DNA from: an uncultured Nitrosospira sp.
GTDB lineage: Bacteria; Nitrospirota; Nitrospiria; Nitrospirales; Nitrospiraceae
Direction: 5' to 3'
Assembly: GCA_900696515.1 (NCBI GenBank)
Contig: CAADGK010000093.1
Location: forward strand, 62,001-126,000
Length of the DNA stretch: 64,000 nucleotides
How positions within the stretch are numbered: position 1 is the stretch's first letter; each line of letters begins with the position of its first letter. The notes beneath the pieces are model-generated. The model searched no databases, was not told where the DNA came from, and was given only the letters and a program-made list of their open reading frames with translations. A program made the translations under genes and the position numbers. Shown in pieces: positions 17,867 through 62,203 of the stretch.

Positions 17867-20800
17867 TCATGACGGCACCATCACTTCTTCCTGCACGATC
17901 CTGGCCCATTCCCCGTTCGGGCGATAGCGATACCAGTCTCCGGCCTCCGGGTCGAAGACGATCAGGTGAACCCATTCATTGTGATAATAATGCTGAAGAA
18001 CTTCATGCCGGGCAATGAGTTTTTCGATTCCGTTCCGAGGCGCTTCAACGATCGTCAACAACCGCATCGGCTCATGGTACGGCATCTCCCCGTTCATCAC
18101 CGTCTGCCGCGCTAATCCCAGTCGAAGATCACTCCAAGGACCGGACATGATGCCGAACCGTCCGACCACGTTGTGATAGATCTTGCTGCCGCTGCCATAG
18201 ACTTCGTTGTCGACGGCGGAAAAGTAGTGTTCCATGTTGATCCACTGTGCGACAACCTGAGGAGCGGTCAGCAAGACTTCCAGGAAACGCGTCGTCGGGT
18301 CTTCTCGATAGTCATACGAATGCAGAAACATCCGACCGGTGAAATCCAGCCCTTTCGTCCATTCGCGACGACCGACCAGGAACGTGGTATTCCCGGAGAG
18401 CCCCCACTCGGGTCGAACTTGACTCCAGTCCACGCTGCGCCCTTGCACATGAGCCGTGGCCTGTGATTCGTCCAACGGCTGCCGGACTTCCGGAAATCGA
18501 CCGCATCGCTCAAGGCTGGCCAGCTCCGATGCTTCCCGCAGATCATCCTGGAGCCGTGCGAGGTCGGCACGATGGGTCGGCGGCACGTCCTCGAGGTCGA
18601 ATAAATGGATCGTGTCCGTCGTGGTATTCATCTGGCCGGCGAGGAAATGCGTGTCGGACGGGATATCGATCCCGGTCTTCCGTAACCGCGCACGGACCTT
18701 GTCGTTGTTCGCCATCATGGCGAGGACCCGGGCATTGGGCTGTCCCTCGTTCCCGCCGCATGCGCCGCAGTCGAGCGCCGACTCATAGGGGTTGTTCTCC
18801 GATGCGCTGCCGTGCGCGCAGAACAGGATGAGCCGGGCAAAGTTCTTCGTCAGGCCCATCATCCGCAGGGCGGTCTCGACGGTCAGGGTCTGCTCCTCGA
18901 GCGTGAAGCCGGTTCTGGTCAGCCGTTCCTTGAATCGCGATGACGCACGCGGGTTGACGTCGTACTCACGTCGGAGAACGAGGATAAACGCGTCGAGCGC
19001 ATCTGCCTTCAAGCCGACGGCTTCCGCCTCGGTCAGGAATCCCGTGTCCGGCTGTTCTCCGCCCTGAAGGGCCCGCTGCCGCAGTCCCTCGATGAGCGAC
19101 GGGGTGATGTGCATGCTACGGAGCCCAAGGCGCTCCTGGAGCGCCATCCGTACCAGCTTTTGATGCTCGACCGTCAACATCTCCGAGGTATCCGTCGGGG
19201 ACAACTTGTTTACCGTCAGAGTGGTCGGGAGCGACGGCACGAATTGCCGCTGCAGCCAGCTTGCCACGCGCCGATAGAGCGACGGGAGGAGAGTCTTCCC
19301 GAAAATCGGGAGGCTATAAAACCAGCCGATGGACTCGACCATTACATAGGGAGTAATGACGTTTTCTTTCAGGTCGTGCATCAACGTGTGGCCCGCGTGG
19401 ACCCACTTCGTCCAGACCTGATGTTGCGAGACCTTGTGATCCAGATAGCTTCGCGGGATTTCGCGGACTTCGTTCTTGGCCCGCATGATGACGGGGAACT
19501 GTTCCGTATCATGCTCTTTCCCCCAGGCGCGGTACCGGATGAAGGCGGCGAAGAAGCCGGCGAAGCCAAAGGTCTCATGCGGGCCGATTGATTCGAGGTG
19601 GCGACGAAACGGCTCCGATCGGACATCGATGCAATAGACGGACTGTGAATAGGGGCGAAGAGGAGGGGTTGCCGGCTTGTCCGTGCGCTCCTGTTTGGAC
19701 GCGGCGACGAGTTGTCCGATCAATGGCTCGTGATAGCCGGCTTCGAAGGCCTTCAGCCAGACGATCCCGTGGTCCGATTCCGGGAAGGCCTCGATCCATT
19801 CGATGACCTGTTTCAACGCCTGGGGCTCACTCCCGACCAGTTGTTCATCGAGCATCTCGAGGGATCGGCTCAATGCGAGGAGTCGCCGGGCATTTCCACG
19901 CCGGCGCGCGGCCTGGTGTCTGGGAACCACCTCGGTACGATAGCGCGCGAGCACCGTGTTCCAGCCTTGTCCTTTCCGATGGGCCAGCCGATCGACTTCT
20001 TCGGCGTAGAGTGCCGGCAGATGCCCGGCGATCCGCTGTCGTCGCAGATAGTACTCTTCCGAATAGTCCCGCATATAGGCGACGATCTCGTCGAATCGTC
20101 CTTGAATATCCAGGTACTCCCGACAAGCCGCCTGCACAAGCTCACGGGCGTACCACAAGCGAATGGCGAGGAACTTCACCAGACCGACCGGGTGGGCCTG
20201 TTGCCAGGGATAGTCGCGTTCTTCTCCCCGCCATTTGATAAAGCCGGCCCACCCCGGGAGCGCGGTCAACTGGAGCGACAGATAATCCTGCCGCAGTTCC
20301 GTCGGAATGCCCAACAGGTTCAGACTGTCGAGCAGCGTGTCTTCCGGATGATCGGGGAGCGCGGCAATTTTACGGCGACTGTCGGGAATCCCGATGAGCG
20401 ACCATTCTTGTGCGGCGAGCCGCCTCCAGGACCGGTACAGCCCCTCGTCGCGGTCGGACATGGCCCACGCGGCATGCCCCTCGTCGAGAAAAGCCGAGCA
20501 CCACTTGATCATCTGCTCATTGATAGTCTGGACGATGGAGGTGCCAAGGGTGTCGTCACACCAGTGCGACAGGGTGAGCCACCGGCAGAGCGCCGAGTGG
20601 TTGGTCTCCACGACTTTTTTCACGCGATCGTCAAGGGAAGGCGTCTCCAGGACCTGCTCCAGCTTCCTCGCGATCCGCTCAATCAGATCCCGGTCGGGAT
20701 CATCCAGCTGATCGTCGAGCGGTTCTCGCACGGGGGAACAGATCCCCTCCGTCAGGCAAGCCCGCAAGACGTCCTTATGGGTCACCGAACGAGGTCCCAG

Positions 20801-21103
20801 GACGATCGTTCGATCGCTGGCCGAGGGCGGCAGGGCCGCATCCAGGTGCTCCACTCGAATGCGACCGGATGTGACGTAGGCACGATACAGGGCGCTCGGG
20901 AGGTAGCCGTCTCCATTCAAGAATTGTTTGCCGCGCCGGACCGTTTCTTCGAAGGGAAGATATTCCAGGCTGTGCAACGGATTGTGGTGGACGAACGTCC
21001 GCATCGGCCAGTACTGGGCGATGATTTCGCCCGCAAGGCGGACGACGCCGCGGAGTTCCATCCGTTTCGACTCGAGATCCATCGATTCATTCACCGGTGT
21101 CAT
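17867..21103 (-). CDS. dabA: DabA-type inorganic-carbon accumulation subunit (DUF2309/UPF0753)
   Basis: The ATG at 21103 overlaps the previous stop as ATGA, fixing the start; the frame extends upstream only within that gene. The 1078-aa protein is a DabA homologue, a beta-carbonic-anhydrase-like zinc protein that works with a membrane DabB subunit to trap CO2 as bicarbonate. The four expected zinc/catalytic residues are present: Cys491 and Asp493 in YCIDVRSE, His764 in CAHGSASENNPYES, and Cys779 in LDCGACGG. The C-x-D and H-x14-C spacings match characterised DabA. It is longer than the roughly 830-aa DabA of Halothiobacillus. The protein is soluble and probably bound to the inner membrane face. 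Confidence 0.88.
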   Translation of the reverse strand: MTPVNESMDLESKRMELRGVVRLAGEIIAQYWPMRTFVHHNPLHSLEYLPFEETVRRGKQFLNGDGYLPSALYRAYVTSGRIRVEHLDAALPPSASDRTIVLGPRSVTHKDVLRACLTEGICSPVREPLDDQLDDPDRDLIERIARKLEQVLETPSLDDRVKKVVETNHSALCRWLTLSHWCDDTLGTSIVQTINEQMIKWCSAFLDEGHAAWAMSDRDEGLYRSWRRLAAQEWSLIGIPDSRRKIAALPDHPEDTLLDSLNLLGIPTELRQDYLSLQLTALPGWAGFIKWRGEERDYPWQQAHPVGLVKFLAIRLWYARELVQAACREYLDIQGRFDEIVAYMRDYSEEYYLRRQRIAGHLPALYAEEVDRLAHRKGQGWNTVLARYRTEVVPRHQAARRRGNARRLLALSRSLEMLDEQLVGSEPQALKQVIEWIEAFPESDHGIVWLKAFEAGYHEPLIGQLVAASKQERTDKPATPPLRPYSQSVYCIDVRSEPFRRHLESIGPHETFGFAGFFAAFIRYRAWGKEHDTEQFPVIMRAKNEVREIPRSYLDHKVSQHQVWTKWVHAGHTLMHDLKENVITPYVMVESIGWFYSLPIFGKTLLPSLYRRVASWLQRQFVPSLPTTLTVNKLSPTDTSEMLTVEHQKLVRMALQERLGLRSMHITPSLIEGLRQRALQGGEQPDTGFLTEAEAVGLKADALDAFILVLRREYDVNPRASSRFKERLTRTGFTLEEQTLTVETALRMMGLTKNFARLILFCAHGSASENNPYESALDCGACGGNEGQPNARVLAMMANNDKVRARLRKTGIDIPSDTHFLAGQMNTTTDTIHLFDLEDVPPTHRADLARLQDDLREASELASLERCGRFPEVRQPLDESQATAHVQGRSVDWSQVRPEWGLSGNTTFLVGRREWTKGLDFTGRMFLHSYDYREDPTTRFLEVLLTAPQVVAQWINMEHYFSAVDNEVYGSGSKIYHNVVGRFGIMSGPWSDLRLGLARQTVMNGEMPYHEPMRLLTIVEAPRNGIEKLIARHEVLQHYYHNEWVHLIVFDPEAGDWYRYRPNGEWARIVQEEVMVPS

Positions 21104-22392
21104 GGAATCGCTCGCGAAAGATTTCCGGCCATCGACTGCGTGGCCGTCGACGTCCACCACTCGATGGGGGCCAGTCCCAGCACCGTGAGGATGACGATCG
21201 TGACGGTCAGGGCAGCCCATTCTTGCTGCACGACATCGCGATATCGAAGGTCACCGCGCCTGGTTCCGAACAACAATCGTTGCACCGCGCTCATGAGATA
21301 CCAGGAAGCCGCCAGCCAGGCCGACGACATGATCATCAGACCGATGAGTGACGGAATCGGCGCGTGGAGCAGCAAGCCCGTCAGTCCGGCGAAGACGCCG
21401 AAGGGGGGAAGCCCCATCGCCGCCAATGCCAACAGAGACAACAGCACGGCATAGCGCGGCATTGAAGAGGCCAATCCGCTGATCGAGGATGGATCGACGT
21501 CGTCGCCATAGCGTGTCCGAATGATTTGCCAGGCAATCAGCAGCCCGCACGTCGCAAGGCCGATGGAGGCGACAAAGACGGCGGCGCGAGACGTCGCCAG
21601 GCTGGATGCCGAGGTATGCCACCAGAGCATGGAAAAGAAGGAGAGACCGGCATAAGACAGCATGAGCCGAACGCGAGTCTGTGCCAGGGCTTTGACGGCT
21701 CCGTACAACGCTCCGATCAGCGCGAGGAGGCCGACGATCCCGGAGATCGCCGCAGGTATGATGTGCAGGGCCGAGGCCATGAGGTGCAGGCCGACGGCGG
21801 GAAGAAGAAACGCCGAGAATGAGGGGAGATTGCCGGGCAGCCGTGTGAGCGCAATCAGATAGCCGGTGTGGAACGGCAGGAGTGGGATCAGCACCGCCGA
21901 AGTGACCAGGGCCCCCAACGATGAAAGCGGATGGGTGGCCAGTGCGGCGACGATCACTCCAAGCGCGGCGAGACAAAACTGGCTGATCCCCCACCATGAA
22001 ATCGGCCACAAGATCGTGTGGTGACGTACCAACAGGCCGGTTATGGTCACCAACAATGCCAGGAGGAACAGCTGACTCAACGGCGCCGGATGGGCGATGG
22101 TACCGATCCCCAGTCCGAGGATGACCATGGTCATGAGCCAAGACAGACGGTGGTCCTTCTGAACCGGCTGTCCCAAGATGGAAATCATGGCCACGATCGG
22201 AAGCAGACCGAGGAGCAGGGCGCCCTCCGGCAGGTTTGTCGTCAGTTTCAGAATCGGGGCGACCGTGATGAGGCACCAGATGACGCACGATTTCTTCAGC
22301 TGCGGCGCGTCGTCCCAAAGTATTCGACCGGCCAGGGCGCCGATGAGCGGAATGCAGGTGGCAAGCCAAGAATAAATAATCGCGCTCGTCAT
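21100..22392 (-). CDS. ND2/ND4-like proton-conducting membrane subunit of the Dab operon
   Basis: The start at 22392 forms an ATGA overlap with the preceding dabB-like gene; a longer open frame to 23046 is a shadow inside that gene. The 430-aa protein is almost entirely membrane segments and has a complex-I antiporter-type layout, including LMLSYAGLSFFSMLWWH and a late MGLPPFGVFAGLTGLLLH loop like that of NuoN/NuoM. It also overlaps dabA by four bases. In characterised two-gene Dab systems only one such subunit is present, so this is an extra antiporter-like subunit. Its contribution to ion coupling is inferred. Confidence 0.75.
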   Translation of the reverse strand: MTSAIIYSWLATCIPLIGALAGRILWDDAPQLKKSCVIWCLITVAPILKLTTNLPEGALLLGLLPIVAMISILGQPVQKDHRLSWLMTMVILGLGIGTIAHPAPLSQLFLLALLVTITGLLVRHHTILWPISWWGISQFCLAALGVIVAALATHPLSSLGALVTSAVLIPLLPFHTGYLIALTRLPGNLPSFSAFLLPAVGLHLMASALHIIPAAISGIVGLLALIGALYGAVKALAQTRVRLMLSYAGLSFFSMLWWHTSASSLATSRAAVFVASIGLATCGLLIAWQIIRTRYGDDVDPSSISGLASSMPRYAVLLSLLALAAMGLPPFGVFAGLTGLLLHAPIPSLIGLMIMSSAWLAASWYLMSAVQRLLFGTRRGDLRYRDVVQQEWAALTVTIVILTVLGLAPIEWWTSTATQSMAGNLSRAIP

Positions 22393-24095
22393 CGCCGGGA
22401 CCACCCTTCTTCCTGCTTGTCGACCCAGTGGATAAACCGCAACGCGACTTGCCCCAGGCGCCCGTAGCATTCGTCGCCATACAACCGGTTGATGAGCGCC
22501 ACATACGCTCGGTGCCGGATTCTCTCGATCCAGGCCGGTATCCAGACACTTCGCCCATGGGCCTTCAAATAGAGGTAGATCCAGCCGAGGATGGTCAGGC
22601 CGGTTGCCCCGGCAAGAAGCAGGTCGAATAACCAATTGGGAAGGTCGGCGGCCTTGAAATAGGCGGCGACTTCGTCCGGATTGGGATAGAGGAACGCGGT
22701 AAACGATTCCACCGCAAACAGGTAGATGAAAACCACGAAGAGGAGCGTCACCAGCATGGTGGAGGACACTTTCCAGGATGCGACCGCGCGCAGCCGCGTG
22801 AGCGTCAGAATGGCCTGCGACGAAGTGATCCAAATGAAGAAGAGGATGATGACGGTCCCCTGAGACTCCAGCAAGGGAATGTGCAGCACCCCGTGGGTCG
22901 CCAGGAGAATCAGCAGAGGGATCACCAAACTTGTCAGAAGCCCCGTCGACCAGGTGAGCTTCGACAGCTGGTCCTCCTCGTGGTGGGTATGGCCTGGGTG
23001 GGGGAAATGTGGCTCGAGCCGGGCCTTCTGAATCACGTTTCCACAATTGAGAAAGACCGTGGCCTTAAACAGCCCGTGCGCGATGAGATGGAAGACGGCC
23101 AGCGAGAACGCGCCCAGCCCGCATTCCATGATCATGTATCCCATCTGGCCGATCGTGGACAGTCCCAACGTCTTCTTGATGTCGCTCTGCACCAGCATCA
23201 TGGAGGCCCCCAGCACCGCGGTCACCGTGCCGACCACGAGCGCGACGTGCAGGGTGACCGAACTCAGGCCGAAGAGCGGCGCCATGCGATTGATCAGGAA
23301 CCCTCCGGCATTGATGATGCCCGCATGGAGCAAGCCGTGTACGGGTGTCGGTGCGAACAGGGAACTCGGTAACCAGAGGTGAAGCGGAAACTGCGCGGAT
23401 TTCCCCATCGCCCCGACGAACATCAGCAGAGTAATGGCGGTGGCGGCATCGATGTCCATGCCTGGCCACAGTGCCACGGTGTGAGGGGCGGTCGTCGCGC
23501 GCGCGAACAGCTCGGGGATCTCCAGCGTTCCGTATACCTGGTAGGTGAGGATGATTCCCATCAGGAAGGCCATATCGGCCACGCGCAGCACCGTGAACGT
23601 TTTGTAGGCTCCGTCGAGCGTCGGAGCATGGCTATGGTTGTGCGCCAGGATGTAGAGCAAGTAACTGAGCAGTTGCCAGAACAGGAACAGCATCATGAGA
23701 TTGGCGCTGGATACCATGCAGAGCAGCACGAAGTCTGTGAGGCAAATCAACGTCAGATACCGTCGGTAGTGGCGGTCCTGATACATATAGTTCACGGAGT
23801 AGGTATAGATGATCAGGCTGACGGCCGAAATCAGCGTCATCATGACGCCGCTGAGCCGATCGATATAGAACCCGAAGGGGATCGGGAGAGACGCAACCGC
23901 GGCCGGGTTATAGAATTGGAGGGTGATCGGTCCCGAGACCGTCACGGCATACAGAGTCCCAGCAGCTCCCACACAGGCGGCTCCCATCAGCAGCGCGGCG
24001 ATCTTGGCGTGGGCATAGCGGGTCGAGTCTTCTGCGCAGACCACGACCAGCGCCGCGACCAGGGGAAGCAAAGGGATGAGCAGAGCAGCCCACAT
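22389..24095 (-). CDS. dabB: DabB-like (NuoL/ND5-type) membrane subunit
   Basis: The 568-aa polytopic protein belongs to the proton-conducting antiporter family. It shows FYIDRLSGVMMTLISAVSLIIYTYSVNYM, LFLFWQLLSYLLYIL, and the core FVGAMGKSAQFPLHLWLP followed by TPVHGLLHAGIINAGGFLI, as in NuoL. A histidine-rich loop (HFPHPGHTHHEED) follows the central segments. As first gene of an operon ending in dabA it is the natural DabB partner, thought to couple CO2 hydration to the ion gradient. The upstream leader contains a long-armed hairpin. Confidence 0.82.
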   Translation of the reverse strand: MWAALLIPLLPLVAALVVVCAEDSTRYAHAKIAALLMGAACVGAAGTLYAVTVSGPITLQFYNPAAVASLPIPFGFYIDRLSGVMMTLISAVSLIIYTYSVNYMYQDRHYRRYLTLICLTDFVLLCMVSSANLMMLFLFWQLLSYLLYILAHNHSHAPTLDGAYKTFTVLRVADMAFLMGIILTYQVYGTLEIPELFARATTAPHTVALWPGMDIDAATAITLLMFVGAMGKSAQFPLHLWLPSSLFAPTPVHGLLHAGIINAGGFLINRMAPLFGLSSVTLHVALVVGTVTAVLGASMMLVQSDIKKTLGLSTIGQMGYMIMECGLGAFSLAVFHLIAHGLFKATVFLNCGNVIQKARLEPHFPHPGHTHHEEDQLSKLTWSTGLLTSLVIPLLILLATHGVLHIPLLESQGTVIILFFIWITSSQAILTLTRLRAVASWKVSSTMLVTLLFVVFIYLFAVESFTAFLYPNPDEVAAYFKAADLPNWLFDLLLAGATGLTILGWIYLYLKAHGRSVWIPAWIERIRHRAYVALINRLYGDECYGRLGQVALRFIHWVDKQEEGWSRR

Positions 24096-52134: not shown

Positions 52135-52417
52135 TTTTATGGAGGTGAAGCAACGATTAGGACAAAGGCATCTTCCCTTCCTGCCGGAAGGATGGTGGTG
52201 AAAGTGAGCGAGCTCATTGTAGTGAACCAGAAAGGGGCCAGGGAATGCGGTGTCCTCGAAACTTTACACCACTCAAGCTCGAAATAGTTGGTCTTTCAAG
52301 ACAGGGCATGTGCGTCCCGATGCCAATAGCTAAACGGCCGAAGATAACGGTGGGTTCCGCTAGGTTTCCGTATAGTACCTAGAGCCATCAGAAAATTCCG
52401 TGTATAGTGTGATTCCG

Positions 52418-53317
52418 ATGGAATGGCTTAATTACCACCATCTTCTCTATTTTTGGTCTATTGCCAAGCATGGGACTATCGCCAAGGCTTGCGAAGCGCT
52501 TCAGCTGGCTCAACCGACGATCAGCGCACAACTTCGGGTTTTTGAGGACCGGCTAGGAGAGAAGCTGTTTCTGCGGAAAGGTCGGCACCTTGTCTTAACT
52601 GAAATAGGCCAGGTTGTCTTCAGGCACGCCGAGGATATCTTCTCCATCGGACAAGATCTGATGAATACCGTGAAGGGCCGTGGCAGCGGCCGAGCCCTTC
52701 GTCTCACAGTGGGCATTGTTGACGTCGTGCCCAAACTGCTGGCGACTCGACTCTTAGAAGCGACGTTTCAACAGTTTCCCGCAGTGCGCTTGGTCTGTTG
52801 GGAGGACAAACTGGAGCGGCTCTTGGCCGACCTGGCGATTCATGGATTGGATTTGGTGATTGCCGATACACCGACGCCGCCAACAATTAAAGTACAGGCC
52901 CACAATCACCTTATGGGTGAATCGGGGGTCACATTCTTTGCGAGTGCAAAGTTGGCAGCGCGCTACCGACGCAACTTTCCTCAATCCCTCAATGGTGCCC
53001 CGATGTTGTTACCCACCTCTAATACAATGCTCCGCAGGTTGTTGGATGACTGGCTGACGAGCCACGGTCTGACACCGACTGTGATCGGGGAGTTCCAAGA
53101 TAGTGCCACCTTAAAAGCATTTGGACAAACCGGCCATGGATTATTTCCCGGATCTACCGTGATGGAAAAAGAAATCTGTCGGCAATATCAGGTACAGGTG
53201 GTACGTCGGGTCGACGCTATCAAACAAAAGTTCTATGCCATTACCGTCGAGCGACGGCTGAAACATCCGGTGGTCATGACCCTCTTTGACACGGCTCGTC
53301 GGGAGATTCTCGCCTAG
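52418..53317 (+). CDS. LysR-family regulator, NhaR-like
   Basis: The ATG at 52418 matches the family start MEWLNYHHLLYFW; a GTG six codons upstream is less likely. The 299-aa protein has an N-terminal winged helix-turn-helix (GTIAKACEALQLAQPTISAQLRVFEDRLGEKLFLRKGRHL) and a LysR effector domain. Overall similarity is to NhaR, the Na+-responsive activator of nhaA in E. coli (INYNHLYYFW-type start, LLDDWLTSHGLTPTVIGEF, ATLKAFG). No antiporter gene is adjacent; the NhaD-like gene is 26 kb away. It converges with the cytochrome c gene. Confidence 0.85.
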   Translation: MEWLNYHHLLYFWSIAKHGTIAKACEALQLAQPTISAQLRVFEDRLGEKLFLRKGRHLVLTEIGQVVFRHAEDIFSIGQDLMNTVKGRGSGRALRLTVGIVDVVPKLLATRLLEATFQQFPAVRLVCWEDKLERLLADLAIHGLDLVIADTPTPPTIKVQAHNHLMGESGVTFFASAKLAARYRRNFPQSLNGAPMLLPTSNTMLRRLLDDWLTSHGLTPTVIGEFQDSATLKAFGQTGHGLFPGSTVMEKEICRQYQVQVVRRVDAIKQKFYAITVERRLKHPVVMTLFDTARREILA

Positions 53318-53342: not shown

Positions 53343-53771
53343 TCATTTCCGCCTCAAGGTGCGAATGTACGCCAGCACATCTCGAGTCTGCTCTTTGGAG
53401 AGCCGATATTCCCATGACGGCATTACCCTGCTCGGACGTCCTTCGTGAATAGTGGTCAGTAAATCAACGTTCAGTTTTCGTTGGGTCGCGGGCGAAGAGA
53501 GATCCGCAACGGTAGCCCCGGCGATCTGAAGGCCGTCTCCTTGGCCTTTTGGGCCATGGCATGTCACACAGTGTCGGGTAAAGAGTACTTTACCCCCTCG
53601 GACATCTCCTTCTACCTGTGTCGGTGATTTTTGATCAGGTTGGGTCTGCCCCCATATCAAGTCTACAGGCGCGGTAGCCCAGACTCCGGCCGAACAGATC
53701 ATGCCGACTAAGAAATAGAAGAGGTCAGAACGGCTTGGAAGTATTGATGGTTTGTTTTTTAGGGCAGTCAT
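53343..53771 (-). CDS. Monohaem c-type cytochrome (142 aa)
   Basis: A membrane or signal segment (FYFLVGMICSAGVWATAPV) precedes one haem-binding motif CVTCH (Cys68, Cys71, His72) in GKVLFTRHCVTCHGPKGQGDG. The probable axial Met is Met117 in RVMPSWEYRLS, followed by the closing helix TRDVLAYIRTL. This is a class I cytochrome c fold, acting as a periplasmic or membrane-tethered electron carrier. No oxidoreductase gene is adjacent, so the partner is unknown. Confidence 0.9.
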   Translation of the reverse strand: MTALKNKPSILPSRSDLFYFLVGMICSAGVWATAPVDLIWGQTQPDQKSPTQVEGDVRGGKVLFTRHCVTCHGPKGQGDGLQIAGATVADLSSPATQRKLNVDLLTTIHEGRPSRVMPSWEYRLSKEQTRDVLAYIRTLRRK

Positions 53772-54020: not shown

Positions 54021-55457
54021 GTGGCTCGTGTAAATCCTGGTGTCGAAAATAGAGTACGCTCCTTGATGCCACGTGAATCCGGCTTAGATGACATTGCCGG
54101 CGACGAACTTCTTGCTTCCGCTAAACTTCAATCGTGGGAGCAGGCTCAACTACCTATGCGATGGCGATTCTCTTCCCGCCTGCCTATCACGCTCTTCCTC
54201 GTCTTTGTCGTAGTCATCACCGTCATACCATGGACCCAGACGATCACTGTGACGGGTCAGATGTCGGCCTATACTCCTTACGAGCGGCCACAGGACATTG
54301 AAGCCCAAATCACAGGACGCATCAAGAAATGGCATGTGCTGGAAGGCGATCAGGTGAAGGAAGGGGATCTTATCCTTGAGCTGGAAGACAATGATCCCAA
54401 TTTCATGTCTCCGCACTTGCTGGCATTTCTTGATCAACGCAAGAAAGCACTGGAGAAAACACAGCATGCGGCGTTGGCAAGAGTCGATCAGCTCGACAAA
54501 CGGATCGTTGAAATGCGGAACCTCGTGAAAGCTGCCGTCCCGTCGGCAGAAGCTCGTGTTGTCGAGGCCGCAAATAAAGTGCGAGAAGCGCATCAGAAGA
54601 TCGAGGCTGCCAAGATCGCGGCAACCACAGCGACGCTGAACGTCGAACGGCACAAACAACTCTCAAAGAGAGGGTTAGTTTCTCAGCAAGAATTGGAACT
54701 GGCCATCCAGGCTGATACGGCTAGTCAAGCCGACCTCGAAGGCACGAGAGCAAATCTGCAGGCAGCTGAAGAGGCGATGAAGTCGCTCAGTTTCGGTCGC
54801 GACCAAGTCAATGCCGAGATGTTACAACGGTTGCTCGATGCGGAGGCGAGCCGCGACACCTCGGTGGCTGAAGCGGCGAGAGCCGACGACCAGCTTGCCG
54901 ACGTGTCACTCCGCCTTTCAAACGCCGAACAGCGCCGTCTGGTCAGTAAGATTTTATCTCCGATTGACGGCACGGTCGTCAAGATGACTAAAGTCGGTGT
55001 CGGTGAGACAGTGCGCCAAGGCGATACGCTGGTTCGCCTGTCCCCGACTAGTACCGACAAGGCAGTTGAGATGACAGCGGACGGCCTTGACGCGCCCTTA
55101 TTGAACGTTGGCCGAAAAGTAAAGATTCTCTTTTATGGAATTCCGGCCATTCCCTTACCGGCTTGGCCTGAACTGATGGCCGGTACCTATTCCGGCGTCA
55201 TTAAAGTTGTCGACCAAGTCGACGATGGCAAAGGGAACTATCGTTTCTGGGTCGTTCCTGACCCCGACGACCGTTCCTGGCCCGAACAATCCCATGTGCG
55301 GCAGGGCACGAAGGTAATGGGATGGGTCATATTAAACCGCGTGCCGCTCTGGTATGAATTGTGGCGGCGGTTCAACCTATTTCCCCCAGATTATCTAGAA
55401 CGCTCGCATACGCTCATCGATACCCTCCTGCCCAAAGCGGGGCGGGGCTCAAAATAA
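54021..55457 (+). CDS. HlyD-family membrane fusion protein
   Basis: The start is GTG at 54021, with GGGGAGG upstream; an ATG 15 codons later is an alternative. The 478-aa protein has one membrane helix (PITLFLVFVVVITVIPW, about 54-70) and the first half of a lipoyl domain (IEAQITGRIKKWHVLEGDQVKEGDLILELEDND). A long coiled coil spans about 130-300, and the second lipoyl half is LSPIDGTVVKMTKVGVGETVRQGDTLVRL. Such adaptors bridge an inner-membrane exporter and TolC. The likely partners, an ABC protein and TolC, lie just downstream on the opposite strand. Confidence 0.9.
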   Translation: MARVNPGVENRVRSLMPRESGLDDIAGDELLASAKLQSWEQAQLPMRWRFSSRLPITLFLVFVVVITVIPWTQTITVTGQMSAYTPYERPQDIEAQITGRIKKWHVLEGDQVKEGDLILELEDNDPNFMSPHLLAFLDQRKKALEKTQHAALARVDQLDKRIVEMRNLVKAAVPSAEARVVEAANKVREAHQKIEAAKIAATTATLNVERHKQLSKRGLVSQQELELAIQADTASQADLEGTRANLQAAEEAMKSLSFGRDQVNAEMLQRLLDAEASRDTSVAEAARADDQLADVSLRLSNAEQRRLVSKILSPIDGTVVKMTKVGVGETVRQGDTLVRLSPTSTDKAVEMTADGLDAPLLNVGRKVKILFYGIPAIPLPAWPELMAGTYSGVIKVVDQVDDGKGNYRFWVVPDPDDRSWPEQSHVRQGTKVMGWVILNRVPLWYELWRRFNLFPPDYLERSHTLIDTLLPKAGRGSK

Positions 55458-55521: not shown

Positions 55522-57222
55522 TCAAGAAGGCGACAGGGGCGATTGTCGGCCGAAATCATCCAGTGCGATGCGGCAATCGACATAGGAAGTGAGAGTGGGG
55601 TCGTTCGAGACGAAAATCACGCTCCAGGAGGCATCTTTCGAGCAAATGCGCTGGAGGATACCGTCTCGCATCCGAGGCTCCATGTCATGAATCATGCCGT
55701 CGAACACAAGGAGTTGAGGTCGGCCTAGAATGGCGCGTGCGAGGAGAATGCGCAATACATGGGTTGGTGCCAGGATTTCTCCGAGGGCACTGACGTGTGA
55801 ATTGATCCCTTGTGGCAGGGTCCTTATCTCGTCTTGAAGCTGGGTCAATCCGAGCGCCCAGCCAACATCCTCATAGGAGACGTACGGACGTCCCCACACG
55901 ATATTGTCGGCGATGGTCCCGTCTATGAGTGATAGCTGCGAATCAATCATAAAGCCACGGCAGTGATTCACGATGCGCAGGTCGAGATGTCGTAGATCGA
56001 CGTTGTTATAAGTGAGCAGGCCGCTGGTCGGCAATTCGAGGCCGGCCAACACTTTGGCCAAGGTCATTCGAGCCATCGTTGTTCTGGTGTAGATTCCAAC
56101 TTTTCCACCGGGAGCCACATCGAGATCGAGATTGTTGAACAGGGGCGTGCCATCCTTGACCATGCCTAACCCTTTGCAGGAGACGCGGATGCCGTGAACT
56201 TTTGGGTCAGGCAGGGTCACCGACGAGGTGGGTGAGAGATGGAGCTGGTCTTTGGGAAGCGAAAAGAACGTATGCAATTCTTCCAAACCGGTAAAAAAGA
56301 AATAGACCTGTCCCATGCTTTTGACCACGGAGTCGAAGTTGATGAGTAGGCTGCCGACTACCACCTCCACCGCCACCAGCTGGCCGAGGGTTAATTGATC
56401 GGTGGACAAGAGCCAGCCGGCGAGAGCCAGAGCGCCGCTGTGGGCGAGGGCCTGTCCGCCGACTGAGGCGATGAATTGTCGTAAGAGGACCGCGAAGCGT
56501 GCTCGACGACATTCCATATATTTCTTTGCCAGTTGGTCGGTCTTTTCCATCAGTAATGCGTGGCTGTCTGTCGCCTTCATGTGGAGGACGTTCTTGGAGA
56601 TTTCCTGTATCCAGTGCAACACATCATACTTGGCATGAGACATTTCAATGGTGGTCCGTAGCCCGCCGCGAGACAGTACGAAGAAGATAAGGGCGGATCC
56701 GAACAGCAACATGAGGTCCAAGAGGATAAAGTATGGATGGTAGAACACCAATATGGTCATGCCGATCATACCGCCTACCAATACATGGATCAGGTCCACG
56801 AGAAGAGCCGACAACGCACGCTGCATGAACACCGTCTCCATAAAGTAATTCGATACTCCGGGTCGGAATCCTTGGAGTCGCACTTGGGGAAGCCTCTGGG
56901 CCATCGCGAAAGCGGTCCGGACAAACAGTCGACGTTGGAGCACTTCAACCGCATAGTATTGCAGCGCTCGGAACGCCCCGACGAACGCCAGTACGACGAC
57001 CATGATAATGGCCAGCGTGGCGATCATGATCGGCTGAATCGCAAAGGAAAACGTATTGACTAATTCTTGAACGGTCAAAGGGATGATCAGCGAAAAGAGC
57101 CCGATTCCAAGGGCATAGGAGACGACGAGAGCCAGAATTCTACGTTCGAGTAGGAAGAAAACACCAAAATGTTTCAGGACTTGATACAAGTTCGGATGGA
57201 TGTCGGATGGGGATGTAGCCAT
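55522..57222 (-). CDS. ABC exporter-like protein with degenerate ATPase domain
   Basis: The 566-aa protein has an N-terminal transmembrane domain with about six helices (LALVVSYALGIGLFSLIIPLTVQELVNT onward). A domain that aligns with an ABC ATPase follows, but every catalytic motif is lost. Walker A reads GIYTRTTMARMTL, the signature is LAPTHVLR, Walker B is LLVFDG without the Glu, and the switch His is Asn (FVSND). Structural segments such as KVLAGLELPTSGLLTYNNVDLRHLD and DGTIADNIVWG remain, and the frame is intact. It probably still works as a membrane partner of HlyD and TolC but cannot hydrolyse ATP in the usual way. Confidence 0.85.
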   Translation of the reverse strand: MATSPSDIHPNLYQVLKHFGVFFLLERRILALVVSYALGIGLFSLIIPLTVQELVNTFSFAIQPIMIATLAIIMVVVLAFVGAFRALQYYAVEVLQRRLFVRTAFAMAQRLPQVRLQGFRPGVSNYFMETVFMQRALSALLVDLIHVLVGGMIGMTILVFYHPYFILLDLMLLFGSALIFFVLSRGGLRTTIEMSHAKYDVLHWIQEISKNVLHMKATDSHALLMEKTDQLAKKYMECRRARFAVLLRQFIASVGGQALAHSGALALAGWLLSTDQLTLGQLVAVEVVVGSLLINFDSVVKSMGQVYFFFTGLEELHTFFSLPKDQLHLSPTSSVTLPDPKVHGIRVSCKGLGMVKDGTPLFNNLDLDVAPGGKVGIYTRTTMARMTLAKVLAGLELPTSGLLTYNNVDLRHLDLRIVNHCRGFMIDSQLSLIDGTIADNIVWGRPYVSYEDVGWALGLTQLQDEIRTLPQGINSHVSALGEILAPTHVLRILLARAILGRPQLLVFDGMIHDMEPRMRDGILQRICSKDASWSVIFVSNDPTLTSYVDCRIALDDFGRQSPLSPS

Positions 57223-57334: not shown

Positions 57335-58804
57335 TCAGCGATACCTGTTCCATACGGCCTCGTTCGAAGTTTTTGCCCAGGCCCCAATGGCCCACTGATA
57401 CAGAGCCAAGGCTTTATGGTATTCGGCTTTTGCCCGAATGACCTGACTTTGTGAATCGACGGTATTGCGTTCGCGAAGATTGACGAACAGCACGCTGCTC
57501 GTACCAATGCTGAACCGATAACGTTCTCCTTCCTCGACAATTTCTACCAAACGAAGTGCTTGTGAGGCCTCCTCGATCCGCTCCTGCGCCCGATCAATAG
57601 CGGATCGCGCGTTGTCGATATCGACAAGCACCTGGTTTTCTCGGTACTGTTGCGCGACCACAAGCCGTTCCGCCTGGCCTTGAGCCTGAAGGACTTCACC
57701 CCGACCGCGACGTTGCAGAAGAGGAACTCTCAATTCAACACCGAATCGATACCCCAACCCAAGAACAAATTTCTCCGGGGTGCGGGCAGGTGCTGCTTCT
57801 AAGTTCAGGCTTGGGAGCAAGTTATTCTTTGCCAATCCGAGGTCGATATTGTTCATTCTCGCCTCCACCTCGAGTGCTTTCACTTCCGGCCGTTCCTTCC
57901 TTGCCTCCAGCTTGTGAGCCATGACGTCGTCCTCAGTCGGCACCCGCTTTTCAGCAGGGAAGTCTGGGACGCGATCGATCGGCGGGATGGTCGGAGAGCC
58001 ATGCTCCCACAAGAACATGGACAGCTTGAACTGTTCCTGCTCAAGCACTCGACGTGCAGTGATGGCGACTTCCCGACGGCGGTGAACCTCTTGGCCGGCT
58101 TCCGTGACGTCGATTGGGGCAATCGCACCGGCTTTTGCACGTTCCTCCACTTGCTTGTAACGCTCTTCAGCAACGGCCAACGCCCGCCTTTGAACGTTGA
58201 GCAACTTCGCCGCGCCCACCCATTCCCAAAATTGGTGGGCGGCGGCTAAGAAGAGATCTTGCCTCGTCTGAGCCACCGTGATTTCTGCGCGAGGAGCCGC
58301 CAATTCAGACTTCTGTAGTTCAGCACGTTCAGGGTTGATCATCAGACCCCTGAGCAGGGGAAAGAAGCCACCCAGGATGACTTGTTGATTGCCGTCCCCG
58401 AACGACAAGTCTGGAATTCTCGCGGCACCAATCGCTTGACGAAATCCGGCACTGGCTCGAAACCCCAACGGGTGCAGTGCTTCCACCAACGTGTCGTTAA
58501 ACCCCACCGTTTGCGTGCCCTTGCTTGGATCGGTACTCGAAATAAACCGTTCAAGTTCCAAATCGTTTACGAGGGCGGGTTCAAAGGCGCCGAGCGCTTT
58601 CAGCATCTGCCCGCGGGCGATCGTTTTTTCTGCCCCTGCCCCTCGCAGAAGGGGGTGGGTTCGGTCGAGCCGCGCATGCAACTCGTCTAGACTGAATGGA
58701 ATGAGTGGAAGCGATTTGTCCGGAGAGACTTCTCCCGCCTGCCCCGCGCTAGTCATGACGGGCAGTAACACCAGCCAACCTAACATAGCCAACAGCGTTT
58801 TCAT
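57335..58804 (-). CDS. TolC-family outer-membrane efflux protein
   Basis: A signal peptide (MKTLLAMLGWLVLLPVMTSAGQA) starts the 489-aa protein. Two outer-membrane efflux repeats follow, with the usual SLDELHARLDRTHPLLRGAGAE and long helices such as AEERYKQVEERAKAGAIAPIDVTEAGQEVHRRREVA. The second repeat includes VKALEVEARMNNIDLGLAKNNLLPSLNLEA. It forms the trimeric outer-membrane channel of tripartite exporters. It lies 112 bases upstream of the degenerate ABC gene on the same strand, so the two are co-transcribed. Confidence 0.92.
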   Translation of the reverse strand: MKTLLAMLGWLVLLPVMTSAGQAGEVSPDKSLPLIPFSLDELHARLDRTHPLLRGAGAEKTIARGQMLKALGAFEPALVNDLELERFISSTDPSKGTQTVGFNDTLVEALHPLGFRASAGFRQAIGAARIPDLSFGDGNQQVILGGFFPLLRGLMINPERAELQKSELAAPRAEITVAQTRQDLFLAAAHQFWEWVGAAKLLNVQRRALAVAEERYKQVEERAKAGAIAPIDVTEAGQEVHRRREVAITARRVLEQEQFKLSMFLWEHGSPTIPPIDRVPDFPAEKRVPTEDDVMAHKLEARKERPEVKALEVEARMNNIDLGLAKNNLLPSLNLEAAPARTPEKFVLGLGYRFGVELRVPLLQRRGRGEVLQAQGQAERLVVAQQYRENQVLVDIDNARSAIDRAQERIEEASQALRLVEIVEEGERYRFSIGTSSVLFVNLRERNTVDSQSQVIRAKAEYHKALALYQWAIGAWAKTSNEAVWNRYR

Positions 58805-60096: not shown

Positions 60097-60727
60097 GGAG
60101 ACCTCCTTCTGGTTATTGAATGCACCATGCTTTTACCTGCTCACGTTATATGGGATCGCTTAGCTCATAGACAAATAGATAATAGAATCATAATTCATCT
60201 ATAAAACAAATTGACCACAATGAGATGCTTGAACTCCAGGCAGCGCACTTCAAGTGAGAATGTGCTGTAACCAAAGGCTAAGAACTGTCGATAGGGAAAG
60301 GAAGAGTCGCCAGTTATTGGTGGTCGATCTGGCGGTCCGACTCAAGATCGTACTGACGGTGGGCGAATGACAGCTGGCGAAAATAGACGGGCGGAGTCGA
60401 GATAATGCAGCGGCTCAGTAGCGTCTGAGAAAGCGGGAGTTCCCTGCTTGCGAAGGGAGACGAGCCCTACTCGAAGTCAATTGAGACTCACGGCTGCAAA
60501 GGCGTGGGAGTCTATGTATGTTACGGTGTGAGACTTTCCCTTAACACACTCCTGGCTTTGTAAGTTTTAGATCATAGTGCGTGTAGACCTATAGCTCATC
60601 AAGGTATCCATCTCATGTGGAATAAATGAGAGCTTCTCTAGATCGGGGGTGCGACCAGCTGTGGTTGTTACTTCTTGGCAGAAGGTTGGAAGTGGCGGAA
60701 GTTAAGAAGGCTGTGTTACACAGAGCT
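60097..60727. other. 631-base divergent spacer with an AT-rich palindrome
   Basis: The spacer separates the divergent small exported-protein gene and selO. Its notable element is an AT-rich palindrome at 60175-60202 (ATAGAT...ATCTAT, with inner GAAT...ATTC), 79 bases upstream of the minus-strand gene and a possible regulator site. No ORF or repeat copy is seen in the rest. Confidence 0.45.
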
Positions 60728-62203
60728 ATGGCCGGTCGCACGTTAGAAACCCTTTCCTTCGACAATACCTATGCCCGGCTTCCGCAGGCTTTTTACGCCC
60801 GATTGAATCCCACTCCGTTCAGCGCGCCTCCTCGTTTGATCCACGCCAATCGGTCAGCCGCAGAGTTGATCGATCTTGATCCTTCGCAATTCGCCAGGCC
60901 GGAGTTCGCGGAAGTTTTCGGCGGGAGCGCACTCGCATCAGGCATGGAGCCGCTCGCGATGCTGTATTCCGGCCATCAATTCGGGGTATATGTCCCGCAA
61001 CTCGGCGATGGACGCGCAATCCTTCTCGGAGAGGCGAAAAACGAACAGGGTCAGCGGTGGGATCTCCATCTCAAGGGGGCGGGGATGACGCCGTTCTCCC
61101 GGGATGGAGACGGACGAGCGGTGCTGCGTTCGACGATCCGTGAGTATCTGTGTTGCGCGGCGATGCAGGGACTCGGAATTCCCACCACGCAAGCGCTCTG
61201 TCTCGTCGGGAGCGATGACACGGTGTATCGTGAGCAGGTGGAAACCGGGGCGATGCTGGTCCGTATGGCGCCGTGTCACGTGCGGTTCGGATCCTTCGAA
61301 GTGTTCTATTACCGAAAGCAGCACGAGCATCTGAAAACATTAGCCGATTATGTGATCGGCCAACACTTTCCCCATCTCGGCGACGTCGAGGAGCGGTATG
61401 CGAACTTCTTCGCCGAAGTAGTCGAGCGCACCGCGCGGCTGATCGCGCAGTGGCAAGCGGTCGGCTGGGCCCATGGGGTGATGAATACGGACAACATGTC
61501 CATTCTCGGTTTGACGATGGATTATGGTCCCTATGGATTCATGGATGACTACGATGCGGGATTTATCTGCAACCACTCCGACCACAACGGTCGCTATGCC
61601 TTCAACCAACAGCCCTACATCGGACTCTGGAATCTGAGCTGCTTGGCTCAGGCGCTGTTGCCGTTGGTCGAGAAGGACGCGCTCAAAGCGGGTCTTGAGA
61701 CCTACCAGCCTCTGTTCGATCGGGAATACCACAAGCAGATGAAGGGAAAATTTGGATTGACGGACGAACAGGCCGTGGACAATGACCTGATTCGAGATTT
61801 TCTCGGGTTGCTTCAAGGCAGCCATGCGGACTACACGATCGTGTTTCGGGAGTTGGGCGGGTTTTCTTCGCGGAACGGCGCGGCAAATGAGAAGTTGCGG
61901 GAGCACTTTCTCAACCGCGAGCGGTTTGACGACTGGGCCCTGCGTTATCGTGATCGGTTGCGGAGTGAACACAGCCGTGACGACGAACGGTGCGAGCGAA
62001 TGAATCGTGTGAATCCCAAGTACGTGCTGAGGAATTATCTCGCGCAGACTGCCATTGAAAAAGCGCAGAGCAAGGACTTCTCGGAAATCGATCGCCTCTT
62101 CACCGCACTCCGGACTCCCTTTGCCGAGCAGCCGGGCATGGAGTCGTACGCGTTGCCGCCGCCGAACTGGGGCAAGCATCTGGCGGTCAGTTGCTCGTCG
62201 TAA
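60728..62203 (+). CDS. selO: Protein adenylyltransferase SelO (YdiU/UPF0061)
   Basis: The start at 60728 is set by the family beginning TLETLSFDNTYARLPQAFYARLNPTPF; the open frame continues 34 codons upstream without similarity. The 491-aa protein shows the SelO pseudokinase landmarks: MLYSGHQFGVYVPQLGDGRAILLGE, LHLKGAGMTPFSRDGDGRAVLRS, LREYLC-like motif, and the metal/nucleotide site GVMNTDNMSILGLTMDYGPYGFMD. SelO transfers AMP from ATP to Ser, Thr or Tyr of target proteins and is linked to redox stress. This bacterial copy ends without a selenocysteine tail. Confidence 0.94.
   Translation: MAGRTLETLSFDNTYARLPQAFYARLNPTPFSAPPRLIHANRSAAELIDLDPSQFARPEFAEVFGGSALASGMEPLAMLYSGHQFGVYVPQLGDGRAILLGEAKNEQGQRWDLHLKGAGMTPFSRDGDGRAVLRSTIREYLCCAAMQGLGIPTTQALCLVGSDDTVYREQVETGAMLVRMAPCHVRFGSFEVFYYRKQHEHLKTLADYVIGQHFPHLGDVEERYANFFAEVVERTARLIAQWQAVGWAHGVMNTDNMSILGLTMDYGPYGFMDDYDAGFICNHSDHNGRYAFNQQPYIGLWNLSCLAQALLPLVEKDALKAGLETYQPLFDREYHKQMKGKFGLTDEQAVDNDLIRDFLGLLQGSHADYTIVFRELGGFSSRNGAANEKLREHFLNRERFDDWALRYRDRLRSEHSRDDERCERMNRVNPKYVLRNYLAQTAIEKAQSKDFSEIDRLFTALRTPFAEQPGMESYALPPPNWGKHLAVSCSS

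Follow-up and report, generated by a model that had tools for sequence, protein, structure and literature searches.

In the analyzed window, by which we mean the whole stretch of 64,000 nucleotides, position 55522-57222 (minus strand) encodes an ABC half-exporter of 566 amino acids, which runs from an ATG start without internal stop codons and appears to be ATPase-dead based on the open reading frame, profile matches, a family alignment, an AlphaFold model and Foldseek searches. The gene is flanked by that of an HlyD-type periplasmic adaptor (54021-55457, plus strand; 478 amino acids), identified by Pfam and NCBIfam matches and carrying, according to a motif check, an RLS TolC-docking motif at residue 210 (RHKQLSKRGLVS), and by that of a TolC-family outer-membrane channel (TolC/OEP; 57335-58804, minus strand; 489 amino acids; OEP match with E 1e-33). 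A preliminary description of this DNA had proposed an intact frame and a location between HlyD and TolC; both were confirmed, the latter by profile matches of the two neighbours. An NhaR-like LysR regulator scoring above the NhaR profile cut-off is encoded at 52400-53317 (plus strand). Between LysR and HlyD lies a small cytochrome c gene (53343-53771, minus strand), which is found mainly in the relatives with 98% identity, and an ordinary SelO protein adenylyltransferase is encoded at 60626-62203 (plus strand).

Within the ABC protein, a transmembrane domain (TMD) with six TM helices was assigned to residues ~12-321 (56260-57189, minus strand) using the AlphaFold model and the family alignment, and a pseudo-nucleotide-binding domain (pseudo-NBD) to residues ~340-556 (55555-56205, minus strand) using a profile match in addition. 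The Pfam ABC_tran model reached only a sub-threshold score of 21.1 bits (cut-off 25), the Pfam ABC membrane-domain model did not match the window protein at all, and the best NCBIfam matches, all far below their cut-offs, were exporters of the T1SS/NHLM/PrtD type (NHLM, LssB, PrtD, CydC, HlyB-type). Using phmmer, matches to P-gp, PrtD and MsbA were obtained. The AlphaFold2 model (mean pLDDT 69, pTM 0.44) shows six TM helices that extend far into the cytosol, fused to an NBD; its best PDB matches in Foldseek were TmrAB, HlyB (HlyB/D complex 8dck), PCAT1, TM287/288 and PrtD, and every top match was a type IV exporter (E 1e-19 to 1e-22). By fold, the window protein may be placed in the type IV ABC exporter superfamily with moderate confidence only, in line with the earlier suggestion that the fold and the transmembrane domain have been retained.

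The alignment to canonical exporters also bore out the earlier claim that other residues occupy the positions of Walker A, the signature, the catalytic Glu and the switch His. At the Walker A position the protein reads YTRTTMARMT (residues 379-387, TRTTMARMT; 56062-56088, minus strand), with Lys replaced by Arg and all glycines gone, and at residues 484-488 (55759-55773, minus strand) LAPTH stands where canonical exporters have the LSGGQ signature. The Walker B segment LLVFDGM (residues 504-509, LLVFDG; 55696-55713, minus strand) retains Asp508, the sole hydrolytic-motif residue left, while the catalytic Glu is Gly509. The switch His of the H-loop is Asn540 (VSNDP; 55603-55605, minus strand), the Q-loop Gln is replaced by Asp (MIDSQ), and the A-loop aromatic residue, as read by eye from the alignment, is apparently also missing. 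Judged by sequence alone, none of the criteria for a functional ABC ATPase (GxxGxGK[ST], LSGGQ, Walker B Glu and switch His) is met.

Scanning 84,980 species genomes, we found that the best 80 loci were all titled Nitrospira or Nitrospirota/Nitrospiraceae, except for one bin titled Nitrosospira; among named relatives, Nitrospira sp. UBA5698 (98%) is closest. The family was detected in 77 of 296 genomes of the phylum, spread over 13 genera that all belong to the order of the window, and a TMD query recovered it in 162/236 genomes and 23/37 genera of the order Nitrospirales, including most Nitrospira genomes searched. The genome of the window itself harbours three copies. Most copies adjoin HlyD and TolC; neither gene accompanies some of the more distant paralogues (L157, L158, L167, L173). 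The gene-trio criterion of a type I secretion system (ABC + HlyD + TolC) is fulfilled. The gene arrangement varies: the window clade shows TolC–ABC with a convergent HlyD, clade B three TolC genes followed by ABC–HlyD, and a further group HlyD–TolC–ABC1(–ABC2). In the clade B loci (L014, L019, L024, L185 and others), the three tandem TolC-type genes lie upstream of a single ABC–HlyD pair and are ~42-50% identical to the TolC of the window. One 45%-identical paralogue in genome G015 (L030:5972-7660), whose TMD region is interrupted by an in-frame TAA, is either a broken copy or the result of a sequencing error.

Next, the motif positions were counted across 144 distinct Nitrospirales sequences bearing an NBD, with nine canonical exporters, all intact at the same columns, as the reference. 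Neither a complete Walker A (0/144) nor the catalytic Glu (0/144) nor the switch His (0/144) was present in a single one. The catalytic Glu position is occupied by Gly in 141/144 sequences and the switch His position by Asn in 81 and by Thr in 57. The Walker A glycines are gone in nearly all; the Walker A Lys is retained in 112 and replaced by Arg in 29, the latter limited to the subclade of the window and a few others, and Walker A Thr or Ser (107/144) and Walker B Asp (115/144) often persist. Members of the window clade carry Arg/Met where the Walker A Lys/Ser stand. The residues that stand in for the lost ones are themselves conserved in the family: Walker B is followed by Asp-Gly and, close by, a His, the H-loop reads S[NT]DP and the Q-loop DSQ. 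The TMD core is near-invariant over the order. It had been proposed that homologues next to HlyD and TolC share these losses and that normal motifs among them would refute the idea; all such homologues turned out to be degenerate.

A canonical tandem partner was considered as the source of ATPase activity and ruled out, as the second half ABC2, for example of Ca. N. defluvii, is degenerate as well (LIFNGSLHN, SNDP, TRSQ); a heterodimer of the two halves would consequently have no hydrolytic site. No partner half with consensus motifs adjoins the window copy according to a profile search of its neighbours.

Selection was assessed by dN/dS (NG86). Between diverged copies, the values ranged from 0.01 to 0.16. 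In clade B, the NBD showed 0.01-0.05, which is below the TMD value in most pairs, and within the window clade at 70-80% identity the NBD (0.08-0.16) and the TMD (0.07-0.12) were similarly low. For 98%-identical strains, with few substitutions, we obtained 0.23-0.44 for the NBD and ≤0.04 for the TMD. According to these values, constraint acts on the pseudo-NBD throughout and is weakest in the lineage to which the window belongs; its strong conservation in clade B indicates that it does something there. A recent pseudogene or decaying copy, for which a dN/dS near one had been named in advance as the signature, finds some support in the NBD ratio exceeding that of the TMD in the closest strains; nevertheless, the ratio stays well below one even there, the frames are intact and identical replaced residues occur order-wide, so that recent decay was ruled out by the conserved replacement motifs together with dN/dS and has, in our view, next to no chance of being correct. 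Sequence comparison thus shows that, across the Nitrospirales, no member, tandem partners included, has a hydrolytic site and that all parts are under purifying selection.

In three species of one genus, which belongs to another family of the order (G225/L177, G214/L178, G406/L236), the protein comprises only 337-346 amino acids and ends in the linker after TM6. No NBD remnant was found in these three loci, while the same search finds the NBD at E<1e-150 in controls. The family NBD was not detected elsewhere in these genomes either: the best other matches showed ≤38% identity and lay inside ordinary long ABC frames, compared to 67-100% in NBD-keeping relatives. In the TMD tree, the NBD-less proteins nest among relatives with a dead NBD, and the loss was probably one event in one genus-level group. 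Among the columns conserved in NBD-bearing relatives, the NBD-less proteins keep ~94% outside the coupling loops and the N-terminus; in the coupling loops they keep 5/10 in ICL2 and 8-9/15 in ICL1+ICL2. The loss of 6-7/15 conserved coupling-loop columns versus ~5% elsewhere is significant (Fisher p ~1e-4), with the restriction that all three proteins share one ancestor, and it is as expected if nothing docks there any more. As far as can be deduced from genome sequences, the NBD is dispensable in one lineage that keeps the trio.

Beyond Nitrospirota, relatives were sampled from a plasmid collection only. Using tblastn of ABC and HlyD against these plasmid records, the same trio was found in the Bacteroidota Persicobacter, Aureibacter and Riemerella and in the Alphaproteobacteria Novosphingobium, Sphingobium, Sphingomonas and Croceicoccus, with identities of ~25% for ABC and 26-33% for HlyD. 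All 13 relatives examined are degenerate, with a pattern that differs from group to group. The alphaproteobacterial ABC proteins have no P-loop; in two Persicobacter species (GYSNSGKNT) and Riemerella (GDTASGKS) the P-loop is near-intact, and both genera lack the switch His as well as a normal Walker B and signature. Perhaps the near-intact P-loop of Persicobacter represents an earlier stage of the same loss. The Persicobacter ABC frames (L202:4557-6731, L208:4063-6237) contain ~140 extra N-terminal residues. A TMD tree, built by a quick method, with long branches and with the root set on the canonical rows, separated the 58 family sequences from the nine canonical exporters and resolved Nitrospirales, Alphaproteobacteria and Bacteroidota as one group each. 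Near-intact P-loop, dead NBD and deleted NBD, which could be read as stages of the loss, stand side by side in the family.

The partner proteins keep their conduit features, with the RLS docking motif retained in 130/138 full-length HlyD copies; this RLS/RLT tip motif of HlyD, which docks TolC, was defined previously (PMC3391258). Recurrent neighbours of the trio are purE/purK and genes for an RluB-like pseudouridine synthase, LysR, and rhomboid-like, aldehyde-dehydrogenase-like and agmatinase-like proteins, mostly identified by reading the sequence and not by HMM. The NhaR-like LysR is a likely but unproven regulator of the trio. Directly after the ABC gene(s), 39 loci (e.g. L041:8131-8919; L077:10554-11345) encode a 263-amino-acid protein with a 4HB_MCP-like sensory domain, a possible fourth component. 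A soluble-transhydrogenase-like flavoprotein gene (L033:3551-4948 and others) is located near the trio in many window-clade loci and in the other family of the order, and is absent beside the trio of the window.

A further lead concerns DabB/DabA, which catalyse PMF-driven CO2 hydration (PMC13144422). The NBD-less loci show the gene order LysR | HlyD–TolC–TMD–DabB–DabA, and together with L243 they make up the four Nitrospirales genomes in which DabB/DabA adjoin the trio. In another phylum and in a different order from L177/L178/L236, a DabB–DabA–ABC–HlyD–TolC run with LysR beyond it is found on a plasmid of Sphingobium sp. KCTC 72723 (L205, 1-9069). The window contains a DAB inorganic-carbon uptake operon at 17867-24095 (minus strand), consisting of DabA (PF10070, 872 bits), an unknown protein of 435 amino acids and a DabB-like protein (Proton_antipo_M); its DabA (17867-21220) lies ~33 kb from the trio. 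A general link between the trio and DabAB, suggested by adjacency, was not upheld: in most of 30 genomes, DabA and the trio lie far apart or occupy different contigs, so that the link is retained merely as a lead.

Taken together, the ATP engine is dead or deleted while the pump body and its two partners remain, which suggests that the system probably relies on an ion gradient, or acts as a channel, and not on ATP. The preliminary description had left three options, namely an ATP-independent channel, a separate ATPase or a non-transport role. An ATP-independent channel or carrier is favoured by the NBD deletions and the eroded coupling loops, a separate ATPase is disfavoured as none was recognised nearby, and a non-transport role cannot be excluded. 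Although energy source, substrate and transport have not been shown, we lean, by a modest measure, towards an ATP-independent tripartite system. Like SbmA, the trio is probably driven by ions, and it probably descends from exporters resembling those of type I secretion; the energy source is inferred. We propose that, no later than at the base of the Nitrospirales family, the ABC subunit ceased to hydrolyse ATP, and that the dimer of the membrane domain would still alternate or gate, feeding the HlyD–TolC conduit. By analogy with SbmA, which has no NBD, an ion gradient could be the driver; the likeliest coupling residue would then be the buried Glu286 of TM6 (GQLVAVE; 56365-56367, minus strand), even though no ion coupling has been shown. 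This candidate was derived from the alignment of the family with canonical exporters: the Glu (GQ[LF]VAxE) is found in 40/45 Nitrospirales rows, with Gln in the other five, in 9/9 alphaproteobacterial and 4/4 Bacteroidota rows and also in the NBD-less proteins, and the column is never acidic in nine canonical exporters. Where it remains, the pseudo-NBD would probably serve in dimerisation or regulation, and in subclades with the Walker A Lys it might sense nucleotide. Several points stand against the ATP-independent reading, i.e. the change of Glu286 to Gln in some members, the strongly conserved NBD of clade B, the frequent retention of Walker A Lys and Ser/Thr, the near-intact P-loops in Persicobacter/Riemerella and the probably single origin of the NBD loss.

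Since no energy source has been identified, the trio might also span the envelope without active transport, as a passive or substrate-gated channel or in a structural or sensory role, with the ABC part holding or gating HlyD and TolC. The Gln variants of Glu286 and the sensory-type protein encoded after the ABC gene in 39 loci would fit such a role, but the TMD core is near-invariant to a degree that seemingly exceeds the needs of a scaffold, and the conduit features of HlyD and TolC are retained; we consider this unlikely, while keeping it in view. An ATPase acting in trans would require that a canonical NBD subunit or half-exporter encoded elsewhere docks on, or heterodimerises with, the membrane domain. 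ABC proteins abound in these genomes (56 stretches matched in G000), and in other exporters a degenerate half is indeed paired with a consensus one. However, an ATPase encoded nearby was ruled out, as the recurrent neighbours of the many trio loci, mostly identified by reading the sequence, include no recognised ABC or other motor ATPase; moreover, the second tandem half is equally dead, the NBD-less proteins have eroded coupling loops, and in most members the own fused NBD would occupy the docking site, which makes this improbable.

Finally, the frequently kept Walker A Lys and Ser/Thr mean that nucleotide binding is possible, and ATP binding alone, without hydrolysis, could switch the transporter slowly or sense nucleotide. 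The retention of Walker A Lys, Thr/Ser and Walker B Asp in 112, 107 and 115 of the 144 sequences and the low NBD dN/dS of clade B would be compatible with this, whereas the missing glycines, the lost signature, the Arg/Met of the window clade and the absence of the NBD from three species speak against it, leaving it a slim chance only. The ATP-independent, probably ion-driven system remains our preferred interpretation.

Nitrospira are key nitrite oxidisers, and with the system present in most genomes searched, its cargo is of wider interest. Some family genes carry the annotation 'ABC transporter ATP-binding protein', which is misleading. As a tentative proposal, whose chances we rate as somewhat short of even, the trio could constitute a new class of tripartite envelope transporter that extends over three or more phyla; its ABC exporter would have turned into an ion-driven secondary transporter, with all stages of the loss coexisting. 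If true, this would provide a naturally occurring gradation between primary and secondary transport, open to member-by-member study; to our knowledge, this question has so far been addressed mainly using SbmA and truncated LmrA. The classification of tripartite efflux and secretion systems rests on the inner-membrane motor (ABC, RND or MFS; PMC8277102), and a widespread ABC branch without ATPase would add another way to energise them.

Within the library searched, no paper on a degenerate HlyD-linked ABC transporter of Nitrospira was found. HlyD–SecA_DEAD loci, which are reported from Nitrospirae as well, likewise combine HlyD/OEP-type proteins without a working ABC ATPase, but contain M50-like membrane proteins and a SecA-like ATPase and no ABC homologue (PMC4452313); an identity with the trio was ruled out on these grounds. 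Degenerate NBDs are known from exporter halves of TmrAB, TM287/288 and BmrCD, the first two being among the best structural matches, yet these have one consensus ATP site per dimer whereas the family has none, even with tandem halves. T1SS exporters (HlyB, PrtD) share the gene trio, the overall fold, weak but best profile matches and the TolC-docking motif of the adaptor; their ABC proteins hydrolyse ATP, whereas the Nitrospirales family lacks either the hydrolytic site or the entire NBD. Despite the T1SS architecture, the family falls outside T1SS taken strictly, because, judged by sequence, the ATPase criterion is unfulfilled. The membrane domain of LmrA acts as a secondary-active transporter without the NBD, and Glu E314 in TM6 is essential for its proton coupling (PMC6155054); in contrast to the family, this is a laboratory truncation of a working ATPase exporter, and the positional equivalence of E314 and Glu286 is not established. 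SbmA, a peptide importer derived from YddA, is proton-driven, lacks the NBD and coupling helices and uses a glutamate ladder and the proton gradient (PMC13316013). With SbmA/BacA (SLiPT), the family shares a type IV exporter-fold membrane domain, which works without an NBD in SbmA and is inferred to do so in the family, and conserved membrane glutamates (PMC13316013). The loss of NBD and coupling helices in SbmA has its counterpart in the three related species, where the NBD is gone and the coupling loops are eroded, but not in the window protein, which keeps its dead NBD. Unlike SbmA/BacA, for which no HlyD or TolC partner is described there, the Nitrospirales family matches T1SS/NHLM-type exporters, and a dead NBD is still present in most of its members. 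The Pfam SbmA_BacA model did not match the window protein at E up to 0.001; it is not SbmA by sequence, yet may work like SbmA.
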